A stretch of 64,000 nt of DNA from a virus: positions 62,001-126,000 of IMG/VR virus record IMGVR_UViG_3300026521_000466; one strand, written 5' to 3'. The position numbers and the translations under genes are program-made. Positions 4,097 to 43,131 of the stretch are shown in pieces. The number at the start of each line of letters is the position of its first letter. Position 1 is the stretch's first letter. The notes under the pieces are model-generated. The model did no database searches and was not told the DNA's origin. It worked only from the letters and a program-made list of their open reading frames with translations.

Positions 4097-4119
4097 CGTA
4101 GAGGATTATTCCTCTACGT
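4096..4119. terminator. Bidirectional terminator
   Basis: Nine-base inverted repeat ACGTAGAGG / CCTCTACGT around ATTATT. It overlaps the stop of the minus-strand gene and is followed on the minus strand by a T-rich tract. Confidence 0.65.
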
Positions 4120-5185
4120 GCAGTATTCTTAATCTGTTGTTGTCAACGACATATGTTTTGTCATTGACTTTTAGATAGTTTATTCCGCCCGCCTCTTTGC
4201 TTATATCGTGTAGGTATGATGTGGATGGGATGTCTACCCAGTCGAGAGTGTCAAATGACGTAGTCTCCTCTACCATATACTCGATATTGGATAGGAGCAG
4301 TTTCTTCTCCAATAGCACAGAGAGCTTATCACCTGCTTTATATCCTTTATCCTCGAACATCTCCTTGAAAAGAACCTCTATCTTGTTCACCGCTTCTTTA
4401 TCGGTTTCTTCCAACTCCATATTTTTCAAGGATTGGAAATCCGTAATGAAATTTGTAAAGTTGGTAAAAGTGATATTTACCAAATAAGAATTTGCCAAAT
4501 GGTATAAGAACTTGTTGAACTCATCAGGCAGCTCTTTTGGAGCTATGTTTGATTTGTTCAACAAGGCGTTTATTACCGTGGGCGCGATATCCTCTTTCAG
4601 AATATACTTTTCTTCTGCTTGGAAGAAGACCAACTTCTCCATCTCCCCGCCTGCTAGTTTGACAGACCATGGATGTATAACCTTATTGAGGTTGATGCTT
4701 TCCGGCACGCTCACCTCTTTGGCGAATTTGTATGGATGGTATATTTTATGTGCATCTTCCTGCACCGGTTCTTTCCCCGGCGTTTTTGACTGGACTGTCT
4801 CATTCTGTACATCGTCAAATAGACCGCTGCTGTTACAAATTGTCGATGGAGAAGTGAACATATCATCCCCTTCCAATCCTGTTTTTGATTCATCGAACAG
4901 AGAGTCGTTATCCCAGAGCCCGCCGCCGCTAGTATCCCAAAGACCGCCTCCTTGACCGCCCCATCCACTATCTGACGAACCCCAACTGCCCGATGAGTCC
5001 CATCCACTATCAGACCCATCCCATCCGCCTGAGCCTCCCCAGCTGCTTGAACGACTCTTTATTCTCTTTACCAGTTTTGGTTCTCTATAGAGTTTTTTCT
5101 CTCCAAACTCATTGGTGATACCTATTAAGTAAATACCGTCTCCCCTACGTGTGTAGAGTTTATTGCCTCTCCTGATTACTTTCAT
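4106..5185 (-). CDS. Protein with Trp/Gly/Ser/Asp low-complexity repeats (359 aa)
   Basis: ATG 5185 follows AAAGGATAGAT and an early-type promoter element at 5239-5248. Residues about 44-95 form an irregular repeat of units such as GGWDGSDSGWDSSGSWG and GGGLWD, with regularly spaced tryptophans between Gly, Ser and Asp. Residues 1-40 look like a small basic beta domain, and residues 145-359 a folded, mostly helical domain. Similar GW/SGW-rich disordered segments in other systems act as flexible, multivalent binding tracts; here that is inference. Function unknown. It is alone in its transcription unit. Confidence 0.8.
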   Translation of the reverse strand: MKVIRRGNKLYTRRGDGIYLIGITNEFGEKKLYREPKLVKRIKSRSSSWGGSGGWDGSDSGWDSSGSWGSSDSGWGGQGGGLWDTSGGGLWDNDSLFDESKTGLEGDDMFTSPSTICNSSGLFDDVQNETVQSKTPGKEPVQEDAHKIYHPYKFAKEVSVPESINLNKVIHPWSVKLAGGEMEKLVFFQAEEKYILKEDIAPTVINALLNKSNIAPKELPDEFNKFLYHLANSYLVNITFTNFTNFITDFQSLKNMELEETDKEAVNKIEVLFKEMFEDKGYKAGDKLSVLLEKKLLLSNIEYMVEETTSFDTLDWVDIPSTSYLHDISKEAGGINYLKVNDKTYVVDNNRLRILHVEE

Positions 5186-14427: not shown

Positions 14428-14451
14428 CACTCCATGCTTATGCATAGAGTG
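14428..14451 (-). terminator. Terminator of the SF2 helicase gene
   Basis: CACTCCATGC / GCATAGAGTG hairpin overlapping the end of the gene, then minus-strand ATTCTTTTTTCAATTTC. The same TCTTTTTTCAATTT tail follows the terminator at 16530-16553. Confidence 0.75.
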
Positions 14452-15928
14452 TATTCGGGTATGTAGATTCTGTTATTGTCTTAACTCTCTGCAAGAGATA
14501 CTTTTTATTTCTTCTTACATATTTAGCATGTTGCGGAACTACTGTGGATACTAATTGTGTAAATATTACCTGTACCTCATTTTCTCTCAATCTTCCTATC
14601 ATTTGGAACAGGGCAGATATACTATCCATATTAATAGTATTTAGCGTGTAGATAAGCCCTTTAATGTCAATAGCTGCACCCAATGATTGTGAGTGTGATA
14701 CTCTGATGTCAGGCTCTAAGGCATTCTCATATTTTGAACCGCCTATATATTTCCTTACATCTAAGTCTTTATAGTGTTTCTTCAAACTCTCTGTTAGAAA
14801 ATCTATCATATCAAGAGATGATGCATAAACCAAACACTTATGGCCATCCTCTCTCTTTGACATATAATGTTTATCAATATAGAAAACTACCATGCGGAAG
14901 AACTCTTTTCTCAATCTCTTATTTTGCAATATGAATTTTTCAAATCGCTTATGTGAGTAGCCGTATCCGTATGAGAAGTTCATGCGTTTAGCAGAATGGA
15001 TATGATAGTTTGCATTCTCTATGATAGTAAATCGTTTATATGCCTCCAGCGCTAATCTTGACTCTTTAGGAAACAGTTGTTTATGGAACTTTTCCAATGA
15101 ACTATCCTTCGTGATCAGGGTAGCGCTCAACGCAATCATTCTTTTTGGATCTAGCATCATAGTTGCTATGAATATGTTATTAAACGATTGATGTGTTTCA
15201 TCTGAAAGCATAATGCCTAGATTCTTTTTCTCCATAAACTCATCAGGCTGTAGTGCATATCCATCATTCACTATAGCGGAGTTTGACGTATTTTCAAAAT
15301 AGACCCTCATAGTATCAGCAGACGCGATAACTATTTTGTACTGTTTGCTGTCATCCATAAACTCCTTTAAGGAATCACTCCCCTGTATTACACATATCTC
15401 GTCCTTAGTTACTTTTAGATAGGTTTCGATATCCTCTATCCATTTATCTATATAGCGAGGAAGGATATATATTAGTACACCTTTGTTTATTTTTGATATA
15501 GCCTCTGCAAACATATATGTTTTACCATATCCTGTCTCAGCTTCAACTATGACTCTGTGATGTGATTTATCAGAAACCATACCGTCGATAAAGAACGGTT
15601 GCTCATCACGCGGTGTAAATGATACATTCATCTCAAACGGCACAGTGTCAGTATCAGTCTCTCTTACCGATACGGCGACATCCCGTTTACTAATACCATT
15701 ACTGAATATATGGTAAAAGAACTCTTTCATTAATGTATCGATTATTACATATTCATGTTTATAATTTATATAGTAGTAGTAGCGATCAGACTTTTCATAC
15801 TTGGTAATACCTTTAGATCTTACTGGTTTATAGGTATATGAATTTCTGAGAAATCCTTTTACTACCCTATCCTCTTTGTCATCTGAGGGCAGTACCCTGA
15901 TTGTTTGGTTGTAGCGTATAACTTTCAT
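14438..15928 (-). CDS. Superfamily 2 DNA/RNA helicase (496 aa)
   Basis: Residues 131-137 are the Walker A loop ETGYGKT. The Walker B/DExH box is DETH at 243-246, motif III is SAT within ALSATLI at about 274-280, and QMIGRLRE near residue 460 is motif VI (QxxGRxxR). Together these define a two-RecA-domain SF2 helicase of the UvsW/XPB-like type, which in phages remodels branched DNA in recombination-dependent replication. The 100-residue N-terminus is a separate basic, Tyr-rich domain. An early-type promoter lies 54 bases upstream. It ends TYPNTLYA and has its own terminator. Confidence 0.85.
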   Translation of the reverse strand: MKVIRYNQTIRVLPSDDKEDRVVKGFLRNSYTYKPVRSKGITKYEKSDRYYYYINYKHEYVIIDTLMKEFFYHIFSNGISKRDVAVSVRETDTDTVPFEMNVSFTPRDEQPFFIDGMVSDKSHHRVIVEAETGYGKTYMFAEAISKINKGVLIYILPRYIDKWIEDIETYLKVTKDEICVIQGSDSLKEFMDDSKQYKIVIASADTMRVYFENTSNSAIVNDGYALQPDEFMEKKNLGIMLSDETHQSFNNIFIATMMLDPKRMIALSATLITKDSSLEKFHKQLFPKESRLALEAYKRFTIIENANYHIHSAKRMNFSYGYGYSHKRFEKFILQNKRLRKEFFRMVVFYIDKHYMSKREDGHKCLVYASSLDMIDFLTESLKKHYKDLDVRKYIGGSKYENALEPDIRVSHSQSLGAAIDIKGLIYTLNTINMDSISALFQMIGRLRENEVQVIFTQLVSTVVPQHAKYVRRNKKYLLQRVKTITESTYPNTLYA

Positions 15929-15981
15929 ACCCTCTCCTTATAGTAGTTAAGACATTATCATAGAAACATCTTATGTACAAT

Positions 15982-15991
15982 AATAATATAT
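15982..15991 (-). promoter_or_regulatory. Early-type promoter element ATATATTATT for the helicase
   Basis: Lies 54 bases before the start at 15928 and directly downstream of the U-tract that ends the non-coding RNA. A TAAGATGT/ATGTCTTA leader hairpin (with two G-U pairs) follows. Confidence 0.6.
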
Positions 15992-16003
15992 AAAGAAAAA
16001 AAA

Positions 16004-16475
16004 CTAACCCACGACATCATATGGTTTGCGGCCATATGATGTCGGTTACATACTCACTCAACTGTGCACTGTCGAGGGCTGCTTGCATTTGTACCTTTTC
16101 TGGGTAAAGGCGTCTCCTTCAGGTCAACTCCGGAGATCTTACTTCATAAACTGGGGCTGGTCCCCATTAACGACAGGAGTTACCGATGACCCGGCTATCC
16201 CCACGGCGTTTTACGACATACACGCTCTGCCGGAGCAGGTCAGACTACCCCACTCACTTTTACGAGGCCACAATGCCTCTTCCATATAGCGATATAGTGC
16301 CATGTCCGTTTAGCACTTCAGTCATTTGTTTCGCGCAATGACATTACCCGCCGCGAGAACAGTGTTTGCAAGTCACTGTTCATTTATGGTCCTTTCGGAC
16401 GTGCTTTGGCCGTCGCCGCGATAATCATATCACCAAGTATAACTACCGCAAATACAGAATTTCCTATCCTATACT
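16004..16475 (-). ncRNA. Candidate large structured non-coding RNA (about 470 nt)
   Basis: The whole 620 bases between two genes (15929-16548) lacks a credible ORF. The minus strand has an early-type promoter at 16482-16491 and a strong terminator at 16013-16043, so the block reads as one transcript. Its G+C is about one half by eye, against about one third in the genes around it. Many local hairpins are visible: AACAGTG/CACTGTT (16359-16381), GTCATT/AATGAC (16321-16342), GGGG/CCCC (16154-16166), GTCC/GGAC (16389-16400), AGGC/GCCT near 16265 and TCTCC/GGAGA near 16112-16137. It does not match RNase P, tmRNA or rRNA signatures known to me. Large ornate phage RNAs such as GOLLD or ROOL are possible classes. 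Confidence 0.7.
16013..16043 (-). terminator. Terminator of the non-coding RNA
   Basis: Twelve-base perfect stem GACATCATATGG / CCATATGATGTC with a seven-base loop, then minus-strand GTGGGTTAGTTTTTTTT. Confidence 0.85.
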
Positions 16476-16481
16476 CACAAT

Positions 16482-16491
16482 AATAATATAT
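16482..16491 (-). promoter_or_regulatory. Early-type promoter element ATATATTATT for the non-coding RNA
   Basis: Followed on the minus strand by ATTGTGAG, matching the GTG seen at the same spacing in other copies. No protein-coding start follows it for more than 500 bases, so it must serve the RNA. Confidence 0.65.
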
Positions 16492-16529
16492 AAACATAGT
16501 ATCTTGGAAATTGAAAAAAGATAATGTCA

Positions 16530-16553
16530 CCTAGGTGGAATTAACCACCTAGG
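16530..16553 (-). terminator. Terminator of the RNA polymerase operon
   Basis: Nine-base stem CCTAGGTGG / CCACCTAGG overlapping the end of the beta-prime gene, followed on the minus strand by ATTATCTTTTTTCAATTT. Confidence 0.8.
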
Positions 16554-18438
16554 AGAGTAACTCTTTTGGACAATGCACAACATCCAGCGGATGCGGAGTT
16601 TTATCTTCATAAAAGTTCATTATGTTAAGGAACGTATCTTTCTCACCCATGTTCAGTGCAGTGGTAAGACATCTATTCCTATATATCTGTTTGGTTTTAC
16701 CTATTTGTGCATTCACTCCTCTCACTAATCTGAAATCATAAGTAGCAGGATTCCTAGAGGTATATGCATAGGCCACCAGTGCAGCATGACTAATATGGAG
16801 ATAGAGTTTACTGTTATAGAGAGTGAATAGATTTAACAGTAGTTCACCTGCCGTTTCTATTGTTTCTCCATTGGGTGTCTTGGATGAATCCAGTATTGAC
16901 CTAATATTCTTATTCAGTATATTATAATCAAACACCTCTTCCGGTAGGAACATGATCCCATCTCTCTTATTCCATCCGCTCATATCTATCATATAGTTAC
17001 CATAGTCATCTATTGAGTAACCATGCTTCACTACATAGAGTAGGAACTTGTTTGTAAAGACAGCTGTCTTATTACCGCTTTTCACTTTCAAACTAATGGT
17101 CTCTACACCTTTGCGTGTGTTGTTCTCAATAACAAATCCACTTACATTTGATATCCGTGTAGGATCTGCAAGTTTCGCCATATCCACAGTTTTCAAATCT
17201 TTCAGTCCGTAGAACTGTTCAGAGCTGATTCTCAGTATTGGCTTCTTACCGATAGGCTCTTTAAAGTAGAGCGTATTGTCTTTCACCTTTATATACTTAG
17301 ATACATCACTTTCCAATACATAGACAGTGCCATCCGCAGATACAATATAGTGTTTTGTACTAAGCAGAGACTGCGTAGCTGGCTCATTGATCTTCGTACA
17401 TGCCCAGTGTCCCAGGTTGAACTTCATGAGTTTCTCATACCCCTGCACGCCATAACAATGGACACAGACAGTATCTTCTCGCTCATGCTTACAGGAGATT
17501 GCTGTTCGTATATAGATATACTTCCCAATGATCTCTTTTGTATCTTTGGTAATTAGTCTCCACTCATCCTCTTTGTTATACTTAAAGTATTGGCCTACCA
17601 CACCTTTGAATGTTCCGGGTGTTATATTGGATTTAGGTTCAATGTATATCAGAGTCCCTTCATCTGTACCACAATCATCATATGATAGATACTTTACCAC
17701 TTCAGATATTGTTTGTGTATGTTTGGCAAATGTCTCCGCATCCTGAATAGATGTCTTGGAGAAGACCAATGAAGTAACTGCACCGCGTGATTCCCCGGCA
17801 TACTCTACAATATCAGTAATACCTTCAATATATCCTGTAGTGACAGGCTTCTTGAATATTTGACTGTCAAAGTCTGATGGGTATCCCCTTAACACACATT
17901 GGTCAAACTGTCTGGCAGATACACTCTTGTTTATATAGGTATGAGCCACTTGGTTGTCTGCCAATTTTGCAGAGTTGAATATCACATCTCTTACTGCGGC
18001 ATAGACATCCTGCACACCCTCTTTGGTAGGGTGTTCTCTAAACTCTTTTAGCTTAGCCTGTACTTCATCCATATAGACTATCTCCAAGACATCATCAAAG
18101 TCGGAGAAGATAACGGATTCCATATTCTCATAGGCTAATTTATTATAGATAAAACTGATAGTGTCGAATACATGTTTTGACAACAACTCCAACTTGTTAA
18201 CCAGAGTATGGTCGTTGATAGATTTAAATAGTATATCCGTAACTATATGGTCAAACACTGATGTTACAGACGATTTTTCAAATCTGCCATCTACATAGTG
18301 TGATGTAATACTATACTCCTGTTTCAGCGGAAGACGGAAGACAGAGAGTACTTCCCATATCTTCATGTTTATCTCATAGACCAATGGTACTTGAGACTCC
18401 ACTACACCATTCGTAAACTTTACCTTTTCAATCTTCAT
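16549..18438 (-). CDS. Phage multisubunit RNA polymerase, beta-prime C-terminal half (629 aa)
   Basis: Residues about 175-260 align by eye with the beta-prime bridge-helix/trigger-loop region: GYIEGITDIVEYAGESRGA followed by a FSKTS...VVKYLSYDDCGT block corresponds to the cellular EYFISTHGARKG...DCGT segment. Cysteines at 316, 325, 328 form a zinc-site cluster, and NLGHWACTKINEPATQ at 341-356 corresponds to the SIGEPGTQ motif. It overlaps the end of the beta gene by 11 bases and is co-transcribed with it. In phiKZ-type phages the non-virion polymerase transcribes middle and late genes. The early-type promoter suggests this copy belongs to that enzyme. Confidence 0.88.
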   Translation of the reverse strand: MKIEKVKFTNGVVESQVPLVYEINMKIWEVLSVFRLPLKQEYSITSHYVDGRFEKSSVTSVFDHIVTDILFKSINDHTLVNKLELLSKHVFDTISFIYNKLAYENMESVIFSDFDDVLEIVYMDEVQAKLKEFREHPTKEGVQDVYAAVRDVIFNSAKLADNQVAHTYINKSVSARQFDQCVLRGYPSDFDSQIFKKPVTTGYIEGITDIVEYAGESRGAVTSLVFSKTSIQDAETFAKHTQTISEVVKYLSYDDCGTDEGTLIYIEPKSNITPGTFKGVVGQYFKYNKEDEWRLITKDTKEIIGKYIYIRTAISCKHEREDTVCVHCYGVQGYEKLMKFNLGHWACTKINEPATQSLLSTKHYIVSADGTVYVLESDVSKYIKVKDNTLYFKEPIGKKPILRISSEQFYGLKDLKTVDMAKLADPTRISNVSGFVIENNTRKGVETISLKVKSGNKTAVFTNKFLLYVVKHGYSIDDYGNYMIDMSGWNKRDGIMFLPEEVFDYNILNKNIRSILDSSKTPNGETIETAGELLLNLFTLYNSKLYLHISHAALVAYAYTSRNPATYDFRLVRGVNAQIGKTKQIYRNRCLTTALNMGEKDTFLNIMNFYEDKTPHPLDVVHCPKELLS

Positions 18439-42037: not shown

Positions 42038-42241
42038 ATAAAAAAGATAATACCCTATAGGTACATACTGTGCGGGTCACTCCTAGGGTCGCGTCCCTTA
42101 GAGAGTTCCTACGGTCACTCTCTACCAGTATGATTGTATTTATATAATCCTCTCACTCAACCCCTCCTAGAAGGTTCCCCTTCTCTCTCTCCTTATATTC
42201 ACATAATAGCAACCAAATAAAAAAATATAACAGAGAGGATA

Positions 42242-42757
42242 TTACTCCTCCCTGATGGTACTAAGCAGTGAGGAGTAATACTTAATATCCTCCTCTACTG
42301 CATTAGCACCTGCATCATTATAGCCTCTTTTCTCTAGCATAGAAATCATGGCTATAATGATGCTTTCCCTAATGTCGTAATCAACATTAGGGTTTTCTAT
42401 ATCAAGTGGGGAGGCTTGATATACTACAGAGCCCTCTACTAACGAGGATTCACTCTCAATACCTGCTTCATTATACCCTGAGGTAATATGGCAGGCATGT
42501 GCACCCACCCCATTTTTCAGCATCATGGCTGATCTAATGGTGCGGGTGTTAATGATGACAATGCTATGCTTGTCATCAATAGTAGCTATTGAAAAATTAT
42601 CAGGTGTCCCCATCGCTTGATAATTTCCTTTGGGATACGATAATACCAATGCTGGTTTGCCATCTACCCCACCTAGACTTAACCAACTGGCGGACTTGTC
42701 CATACCCGCCAGATGAATTTTGAAGTCATGCTTCAGAGCATTGTATGATTTTAACAC
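42242..42757 (-). CDS. Unknown protein with GTG start (171 aa)
   Basis: The start is GTG 42757, supported by AGGAGCATCAC at ideal spacing and by overlap with the stop of the upstream gene. Residues 20-100 are beta-rich, with repeated strands around SIATIDDKHSIVIINTRTI, followed by a short Gly/Cys/His segment (GVGAHACHI) and a helical C-terminus. No catalytic motif recognised. It belongs to a two-gene early-type operon. Confidence 0.7.
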   Translation of the reverse strand: MLKSYNALKHDFKIHLAGMDKSASWLSLGGVDGKPALVLSYPKGNYQAMGTPDNFSIATIDDKHSIVIINTRTIRSAMMLKNGVGAHACHITSGYNEAGIESESSLVEGSVVYQASPLDIENPNVDYDIRESIIIAMISMLEKRGYNDAGANAVEEDIKYYSSLLSTIREE

Positions 42758-42984
42758 GTGATGCTCCTATGAAAATCAATCTGCATCTGAGAGAAGAATC
42801 TCTCACTCTCTCTCAGATGCTCTTTAAAACAGAGGTTGTGATGGGCAGCGACAACCTCCCCTCGTTGCGGTTGGGAAATGTCGAGATTTCTCATCTCTTC
42901 CATCTCCCTCTCGACTTCTTCGAGTTTCTTGAAGAAGTCTTTCTCCGACGGAAATGGTCCATCGGTTAATGGTTTTAATGCCAT
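42751..42984 (-). CDS. Small coiled-coil protein (77 aa)
   Basis: ATG 42984 follows AAGGAGATAATT. Residues 14-37 are a Glu/Lys-rich coiled coil (DFFKKLEEVEREMEEMRNL) and a His-rich turn follows (VVAAHHNLC). The gene begins an operon under the promoter at 43047-43056. Function unknown. Confidence 0.7.
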   Translation of the reverse strand: MALKPLTDGPFPSEKDFFKKLEEVEREMEEMRNLDISQPQRGEVVAAHHNLCFKEHLRESERFFSQMQIDFHRSITC

Positions 42985-43024
42985 AATTATCTCCTTACGA
43001 TAATAAATAATTAGTATCATAGAT

Positions 43025-43056
43025 ACACCTAAGCCTAAACCACTATAATAATATAC
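43025..43056 (-). repeat. Copy 2 of the promoter-proximal repeat
   Basis: ACACCTAAGCCTAAACC then ACTATAATAATATAC, matching 41945-41980 with few changes. Confidence 0.55.
43047..43056 (-). promoter_or_regulatory. Early-type promoter element GTATATTATT
   Basis: Followed by ATAGTGG on the minus strand; 63 bases before ATG 42984, with a GTATC/GATAC leader hairpin. It lies in the divergent gap with the DNA polymerase N-terminal gene. Confidence 0.65.
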
Positions 43057-43131
43057 AAACACTACGGCTTGCAATTTGATTTATTCTTTATAACTTAATT
43101 ATAGGATAAGAGAAATAATAAAGGGTGTGAT

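Follow-up and report, generated by a model that had tools for sequence, protein, structure and literature searches.

We propose that positions 15997-16476 on the minus strand of the window (the whole 64,000-base stretch analyzed, bases 62001-126000 of a 164,797-base IMG/VR phage record, to which coordinates prefixed G000 refer) are the gene for a stand-alone structured noncoding RNA of ~480 nt that is transcribed early by the virion RNA polymerase (vRNAP), ends at its own terminator and most likely acts in trans. We hold this reading as a whole with moderate confidence. That the unit exists as an early noncoding RNA gene is likely, and it is a separate transcription unit without a credible gene. 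The unit lies between a gene for a beta subunit of a multisubunit RNA polymerase (RNAP) on its 5' side (16549-18438, minus strand; phrog_3015, E 7.7e-107) and a DNA helicase gene on its 3' side. The record contains RNAP beta families phrog_3015, 3295, 2987, and 2962 together with a DnaB-like helicase, DNA polymerases, a major head protein, and a chimallin-like nuclear shell protein (phrog_4795, E 1.2e-13), and by this gene content the phage is a very diverged member of the phiKZ type with multisubunit RNAP genes that is probably nucleus-forming (Chimalliviridae-like). The divergence is considerable, as the top protein matches in named phages are only ~25-30% identical, and of the 128 relatives found with a DNA polymerase profile the 80 that were kept are all at most 30% identical (the best IMG/VR match being 30%). 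Peptide searches with the beta subunit and the helicase gave no close phage relatives, and the DNA polymerase profile had no match in GTDB genomes.

The coding capacity of the unit is minimal. On the transcript strand there are no open reading frames (ORFs) of 60 or more amino acids between the stop of the RNAP beta gene (16549) and the start of the helicase gene (15928), the longest ORF within the transcript has 30 amino acids, and the small ORFs listed are without a convincing Shine-Dalgarno sequence. Its base composition also sets it apart, as over 400 bases its GC content reaches 0.515, higher than anywhere else in the 165-kb record (mean 0.349, sd 0.033). Hence, the gene-free gap and the GC-richer block described in the initial annotation are both borne out. 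Next in GC content within the record (0.51) is a stretch at window positions 4644-5043, part of a 359-aa ORF (4106-5185, minus strand) that has a repetitive, G/S/W-rich N-terminal part and an early-type promoter on its 5' side. The features of the RNA unit and its immediate surroundings are collected in Table 1.

Table 1. Features of the predicted RNA gene and its flanks, in window coordinates and in 5' to 3' order of the minus strand.
Feature	Position	Strand	Remarks
RNAP beta terminator	16514..16553	-	9-bp stem 16530-16553, T6 at 16514-16519
Upstream box TTTCCAA, 10 nt 5' of the promoter core	16504..16510	-	Same spacing at three early promoters
Early (virion-RNAP type) promoter, TTTATATATTATTATTGT	16477..16494	-	Repeated motif class and AR9-like spacing
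Predicted structured noncoding RNA transcript, ~480 nt	15997..16476	-	+1 = G16476; 3' end in T-tract
Predicted 5' hairpins: P1 16476-16450, P2 16449-16418, 3-bp stem 16417-16408	16408..16476	-	Pair probability 0.97-0.99
Predicted GUCC-GAAA-GGAC hairpin with GNRA tetraloop	16389..16400	-	Pair probability 0.99
Candidate long-range helix, CUUGCA 16372-16367 / UGCAAG 16087-16082	16082..16372	-	p 0.83, nested fold
Central domain, 14-bp helix 16362-16349/16208-16195	16195..16362	-	Predicted fold
Predicted 3' domain, 16193-16183/16133-16120, with GGGG/CCCC hairpin 16166-16152	16120..16193	-	z -1.6
Intrinsic terminator hairpin of the RNA	16005..16048	-	T8 at 15996-16003; longest stem of 12
Early promoter of the helicase gene, identical 18-mer (18/18)	15977..15994	-	Directly behind the terminator of the RNA
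SF2 DNA helicase gene, phrog_16	14438..15928	-	3' neighbor of the RNA unit

In phages such as AR9, phiKZ, and phiR1-37, early operons have one conserved AT-rich motif upstream (PMC7598289), and the early promoter consensus of phage AR9 is AAATATATATTAT-(6N)-G (PMC5312081). The promoter of the RNA unit has the same arrangement, namely TATATATTAT followed by six bases and then G, and this spacing therefore places the predicted +1 at 16476. In the whole record the motif class occurs in 15 perfect and eight one-mismatch copies on the minus strand and in no perfect and one such copy on the plus strand, compared with 0-2 copies in shuffled sequence, and the copies mostly lie 40-75 bases 5' of an ORF. 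The motif is thus AT-rich, strand-specific and repeated before many units with the TATATATTAT-(6N)-G layout, as vRNAP early promoters are. It resembles the early promoters of AR9, phiKZ, and phiR1-37 in its AT-rich TATATATTAT core, the 6-nt interval and the starting G of the AR9 consensus, but it differs from them in being longer (TTTRTATATTATTATWGT) and in that three copies, at window 16504-16510 and at G000 33286 and 69 (minus strand), carry the extra TTTCCAA box. Other early promoters often stand directly 3' of a T-tract (TTTTTTCTTT) as terminator-promoter junctions. The strand split of near-perfect early promoters, 23 on the minus strand versus one on the plus strand, indicates that early transcription is almost wholly one-directional over the 165 kb. 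A local tandem duplication as the origin of the promoter pair that brackets the RNA was considered and rejected, in that the 18-mers are identical yet their flanks differ.

At the 3' end of the unit, the pairing read from the sequence gives a perfect stem of 12-13 bp that is extended by UAACC/GGUUA over a 3-nt bulge and is followed by G and T8, and this is the longest stem among 12 strong minus-strand terminators. Together with the terminator of the RNAP beta gene, which is another of these 12, it insulates the unit on both sides. The initial annotation had reported a terminator with a 12-bp stem and a U-tract and had suggested independent early-type transcription; the former is confirmed, and the latter is supported by the presence of an early promoter and a dedicated terminator in the sequence. 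The promoter element it had placed at 16482-16491 is real, although its extent is larger (16477-16494).

Folding of the predicted transcript favors the transcript strand. For the full transcript the z-score is -3.4 on the minus strand, compared with -0.7 to -1.1 for the plus strand; with the terminator removed, the corresponding figures are -2.5 and +0.4 to +1.0. By absolute free energy the minus-strand block is matched by only five of 1522 overlapping window-strands, which all come from one other region, and it is thus one of the two most stably folding regions of the record. The z-score itself is not exceptional: nine of 98 window-strands sampled from the window do at least as well against their shuffles, with extremes reaching -4.6, and the folding of the block without its terminator exceeds the GC trend by 1.6 sd, close to what its GC content predicts. 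The strand preference of the folding speaks for the structured RNA proposed in the initial annotation. The structure described here is a thermodynamic prediction throughout, and z-scores by themselves do not prove structure. Its best-defined elements are the two hairpins at the 5' end, the 14-bp helix of the central domain with the three hairpins that it encloses (16317-16296, 16292-16254, and 16251-16232), the GGGG/CCCC hairpin and the terminator. The 5' hairpin part, which begins at +1, has a z-score of -4.2 versus -0.3 on the other strand and the central domain one of -4.1 versus -1.25, but these values near -4 are flattering because both parts were chosen after folding. The CUUGCA/UGCAAG helix would possibly form a pseudoknot if an alternative hairpin, GAACAGUG/CACUGUUC (16380-16357), is adopted, and as a pairing of only 6 bp it could have arisen by chance.

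Other parts of the record also fold strongly or are devoid of ORFs. The most stably folding part, more extreme than the 480-nt RNA, is window 42100-43045 (minus strand), which is coding, with ORFs of ~83 and 171 aa, an early promoter at 43042-43059 and an mRNA packed with near-perfect hairpins (z -13.3 for the 946 nt as a whole and about -7 in each 430 nt, whichever strand is folded). A short ORF-less stretch at window 42075-42210 (minus strand), flanked by a terminator and an early promoter, contains an GUGACCGUAGG...GGGACGCGACCC segment and folds no better than its shuffles (z -0.9). Outside the window on the minus strand, G000 163081-163890 folds strongly (z -3.5 and -4.5) and is partly ORF-less. 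G000 143470-143613, likewise outside the window and on the minus strand, consists of an early promoter, ~130 nt (143470-143598) without an obvious gene and a terminator, with GAGCAUACCA/UGGUAUGCUC pairing across the unit and a z-score of -4.9 versus -1.4 for the other strand. A third minus-strand locus outside the window, G000 155390-156435, is a 1-kb ORF-less unit with an early promoter and a terminator, a central tRNA-Met(CAU) and, right after it, a 50-nt tRNA-like piece that has an acceptor and a T arm and no room for D or anticodon arms; an 11-nt GAAA-tetraloop receptor (CCUAAG..UAUGG) and a GAAA hairpin are also present. The noncoding-looking early units at G000 155390-156435 and 143470-143598 make it plausible, if unproven, that this phage uses early RNAs more generally.

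The RNA belongs to no family that the available models recognize. Searches with cmscan against Rfam were run at the gathering threshold on the window and up to E = 10 on 15900-16600, and to that limit there was no match to GOLLD, ROOL, OLE or another large RNA, to a group I or group II intron, RNase P RNA, tmRNA, rRNA, 6S RNA or SRP RNA, or to a riboswitch or leader, nor was there a tRNA match in the block. These empty scans agree with the earlier statement that signatures of RNase P, tmRNA, and rRNA are missing, and they carry out the comparison with GOLLD, ROOL, group I intron and other large-RNA models that had been suggested as a check, with nothing matched. When the block was compared by blastn with phages, plasmids, and E. 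coli genomes, nothing related was found, the phage matches being confined to a 28-base stretch (E 0.2). Exact-pattern scans of IMG/VR with four pieces of the RNA returned 3, 28, 0, and 0 matches with no alignable similarity around the matched pieces, and the three pattern matches examined sit in unrelated sequence. There was no credible match to the RNA in 26 records of DNA polymerase relatives and no paralogue within the record itself. An antisense relation to other genes of the record was also dropped, as there was no significant complementarity and only chance matches of ~13-28 bases.

The junction between the RNAP and helicase genes could be read in 19 relatives. In 16 of them the helicase begins 5-87 bases after the preceding ORF, which is usually an RNAP gene, and the remaining three gaps measure 250-348 bases and are of ordinary GC content; in several named phages the RNAP and helicase genes are adjacent or have a few small genes between them. 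The unit is absent from this junction in those 16 relatives; its gene was therefore either acquired by this lineage or lost from every relative without it, and on the sequences compared the RNA gene is lineage-specific. The suggestion in the initial annotation that the RNAP and helicase neighbors hint at the role of the RNA is not sustained. Specifically, the neighbors are uninformative on function because relatives that lack the RNA also have the two genes side by side or almost so and because the helicase has a promoter of its own.

We now put forward a hypothetical sequence of events. The virion RNA polymerase would transcribe the unit at the start of infection, and transcription would end at the intrinsic terminator of the RNA. 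Both ends would then be protected, one by the hairpin at +1 and the other by the strong terminal hairpin, allowing the RNA to accumulate. By analogy to the large noncoding RNAs of other phages, it would most likely act in trans early in infection, as a folded RNA or as an RNA-protein particle. An early promoter of a strongly conserved class, a hairpin at +1 and a robust terminator together are the layout expected of an RNA that is stable and stands alone, and it is from this layout that we infer transcription, early timing and stability. In nucleus-forming phages early transcription takes place in a vesicle and later transcription in the phage nucleus. A bolder version, which we regard as unlikely, is that the RNA founds a class of its own among large structured RNAs, is made by vRNAP in the early infection vesicle, serves there as a scaffold or decoy and belongs to a group of early structured RNAs in this record whose other members would be near G000 143470-143598 and 155390-156435.

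A promoter, a structured leader, a terminator and a gene do follow one another on one strand, as they would if the block were a long 5' leader of the helicase that acts as a sensor and controls conditional termination at 16005-16048 in the manner of an attenuator or riboswitch. However, the identical early promoter directly behind the terminator makes read-through unnecessary, no Rfam riboswitch or leader matches, and 480 nt is long for a leader. We therefore consider a leader quite unlikely and a trans-acting RNA the better fit, because the helicase has its own promoter. It is improbable as well that the block is the remnant of a mobile or acquired element, such as an intron, a piece of a tRNA island or host DNA, that folds by chance between a promoter and a terminator. 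A GC content far above that of the genome and absence from the junction in relatives would agree with such an origin, as would the tRNA and tRNA-like piece of the other ORF-less unit of the record; against it are the lack of an intron, tRNA or other Rfam match to E 10 and of any relative in phages, plasmids, and E. coli genomes, and the precise placement of promoter and terminator at the two edges. In addition, a high GC content is what one would expect of a structured RNA in an AT-rich genome.

Two further readings concern what the transcript might do. Membership of the early class and a position next to an RNAP subunit gene could point to a regulator, either 6S-like or antisense, that targets the phage polymerases or other phage genes, and for a noncoding RNA of a phage satellite an antisense role has been proposed (PMC7567579). 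We find this decidedly improbable, since no 6S match was obtained, complementarity to the record is limited to the chance level of ~13-28 bases, and adjacency to the RNAP gene is explained by the conserved RNAP-helicase synteny. Least credible, and in our estimate very improbable, is that the transcript is an mRNA that encodes very small proteins, one or several. Such an mRNA is suggested by the presence of ORFs of 14-30 codons and by a 37-codon early gene elsewhere in this phage (G000 about 33190-33080), but none of the ORFs has a convincing Shine-Dalgarno sequence, each covers at most one fifth of the transcript, and the GC content and folding of the block are unlike those of the genes.

A stand-alone, trans-acting early RNA thus remains the reading that we favor, and so far as the models tell it would be an orphan of the same broad kind as the large noncoding RNAs of other phages, outside the Rfam families. 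GOLLD and ROOL form RNA-only cages (PMC12286853). The RNA resembles them in being phage-encoded, hundreds of nucleotides long, ORF-less and predicted to form many hairpins, but it differs in having no covariance-model match, in being shorter than the 659-nt ROOL and the >800-nt GOLLD and in having no tRNAs alongside. The tRNA-Met unit at G000 155390-156435 is closer to the setting of GOLLD than the 480-nt RNA is, yet it has no GOLLD model match. The Vibrio phage ICP1 provides a stand-alone ORF-less noncoding RNA of ~800 nt in a lytic phage (PMC7567579), and ours is likewise a stand-alone ORF-less unit, here predicted from sequence. ICP1 differs in belonging to another phage group and in that its RNA adjoins the lysis cluster; for sequence, the comparison was that of the blastn search of the phage collection. 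If our proposal is correct, this would be a further case, besides GOLLD/ROOL and ICP1, of a phage that spends at least ~0.5 kb on an RNA with no function assigned so far. In phiKZ, Grad-seq revealed noncoding RNAs of about 100 and 180 nt that derive from a 3' UTR and a 5' UTR (PMC8545117). The RNA proposed here would similarly be a noncoding RNA of a (here probable) nucleus-forming phage, but in contrast to those UTR-derived RNAs it has ~480 nt and a promoter and terminator of its own, and a large early RNA that is dedicated and independently transcribed in this way would add an RNA component to the biology of nucleus-forming phages.
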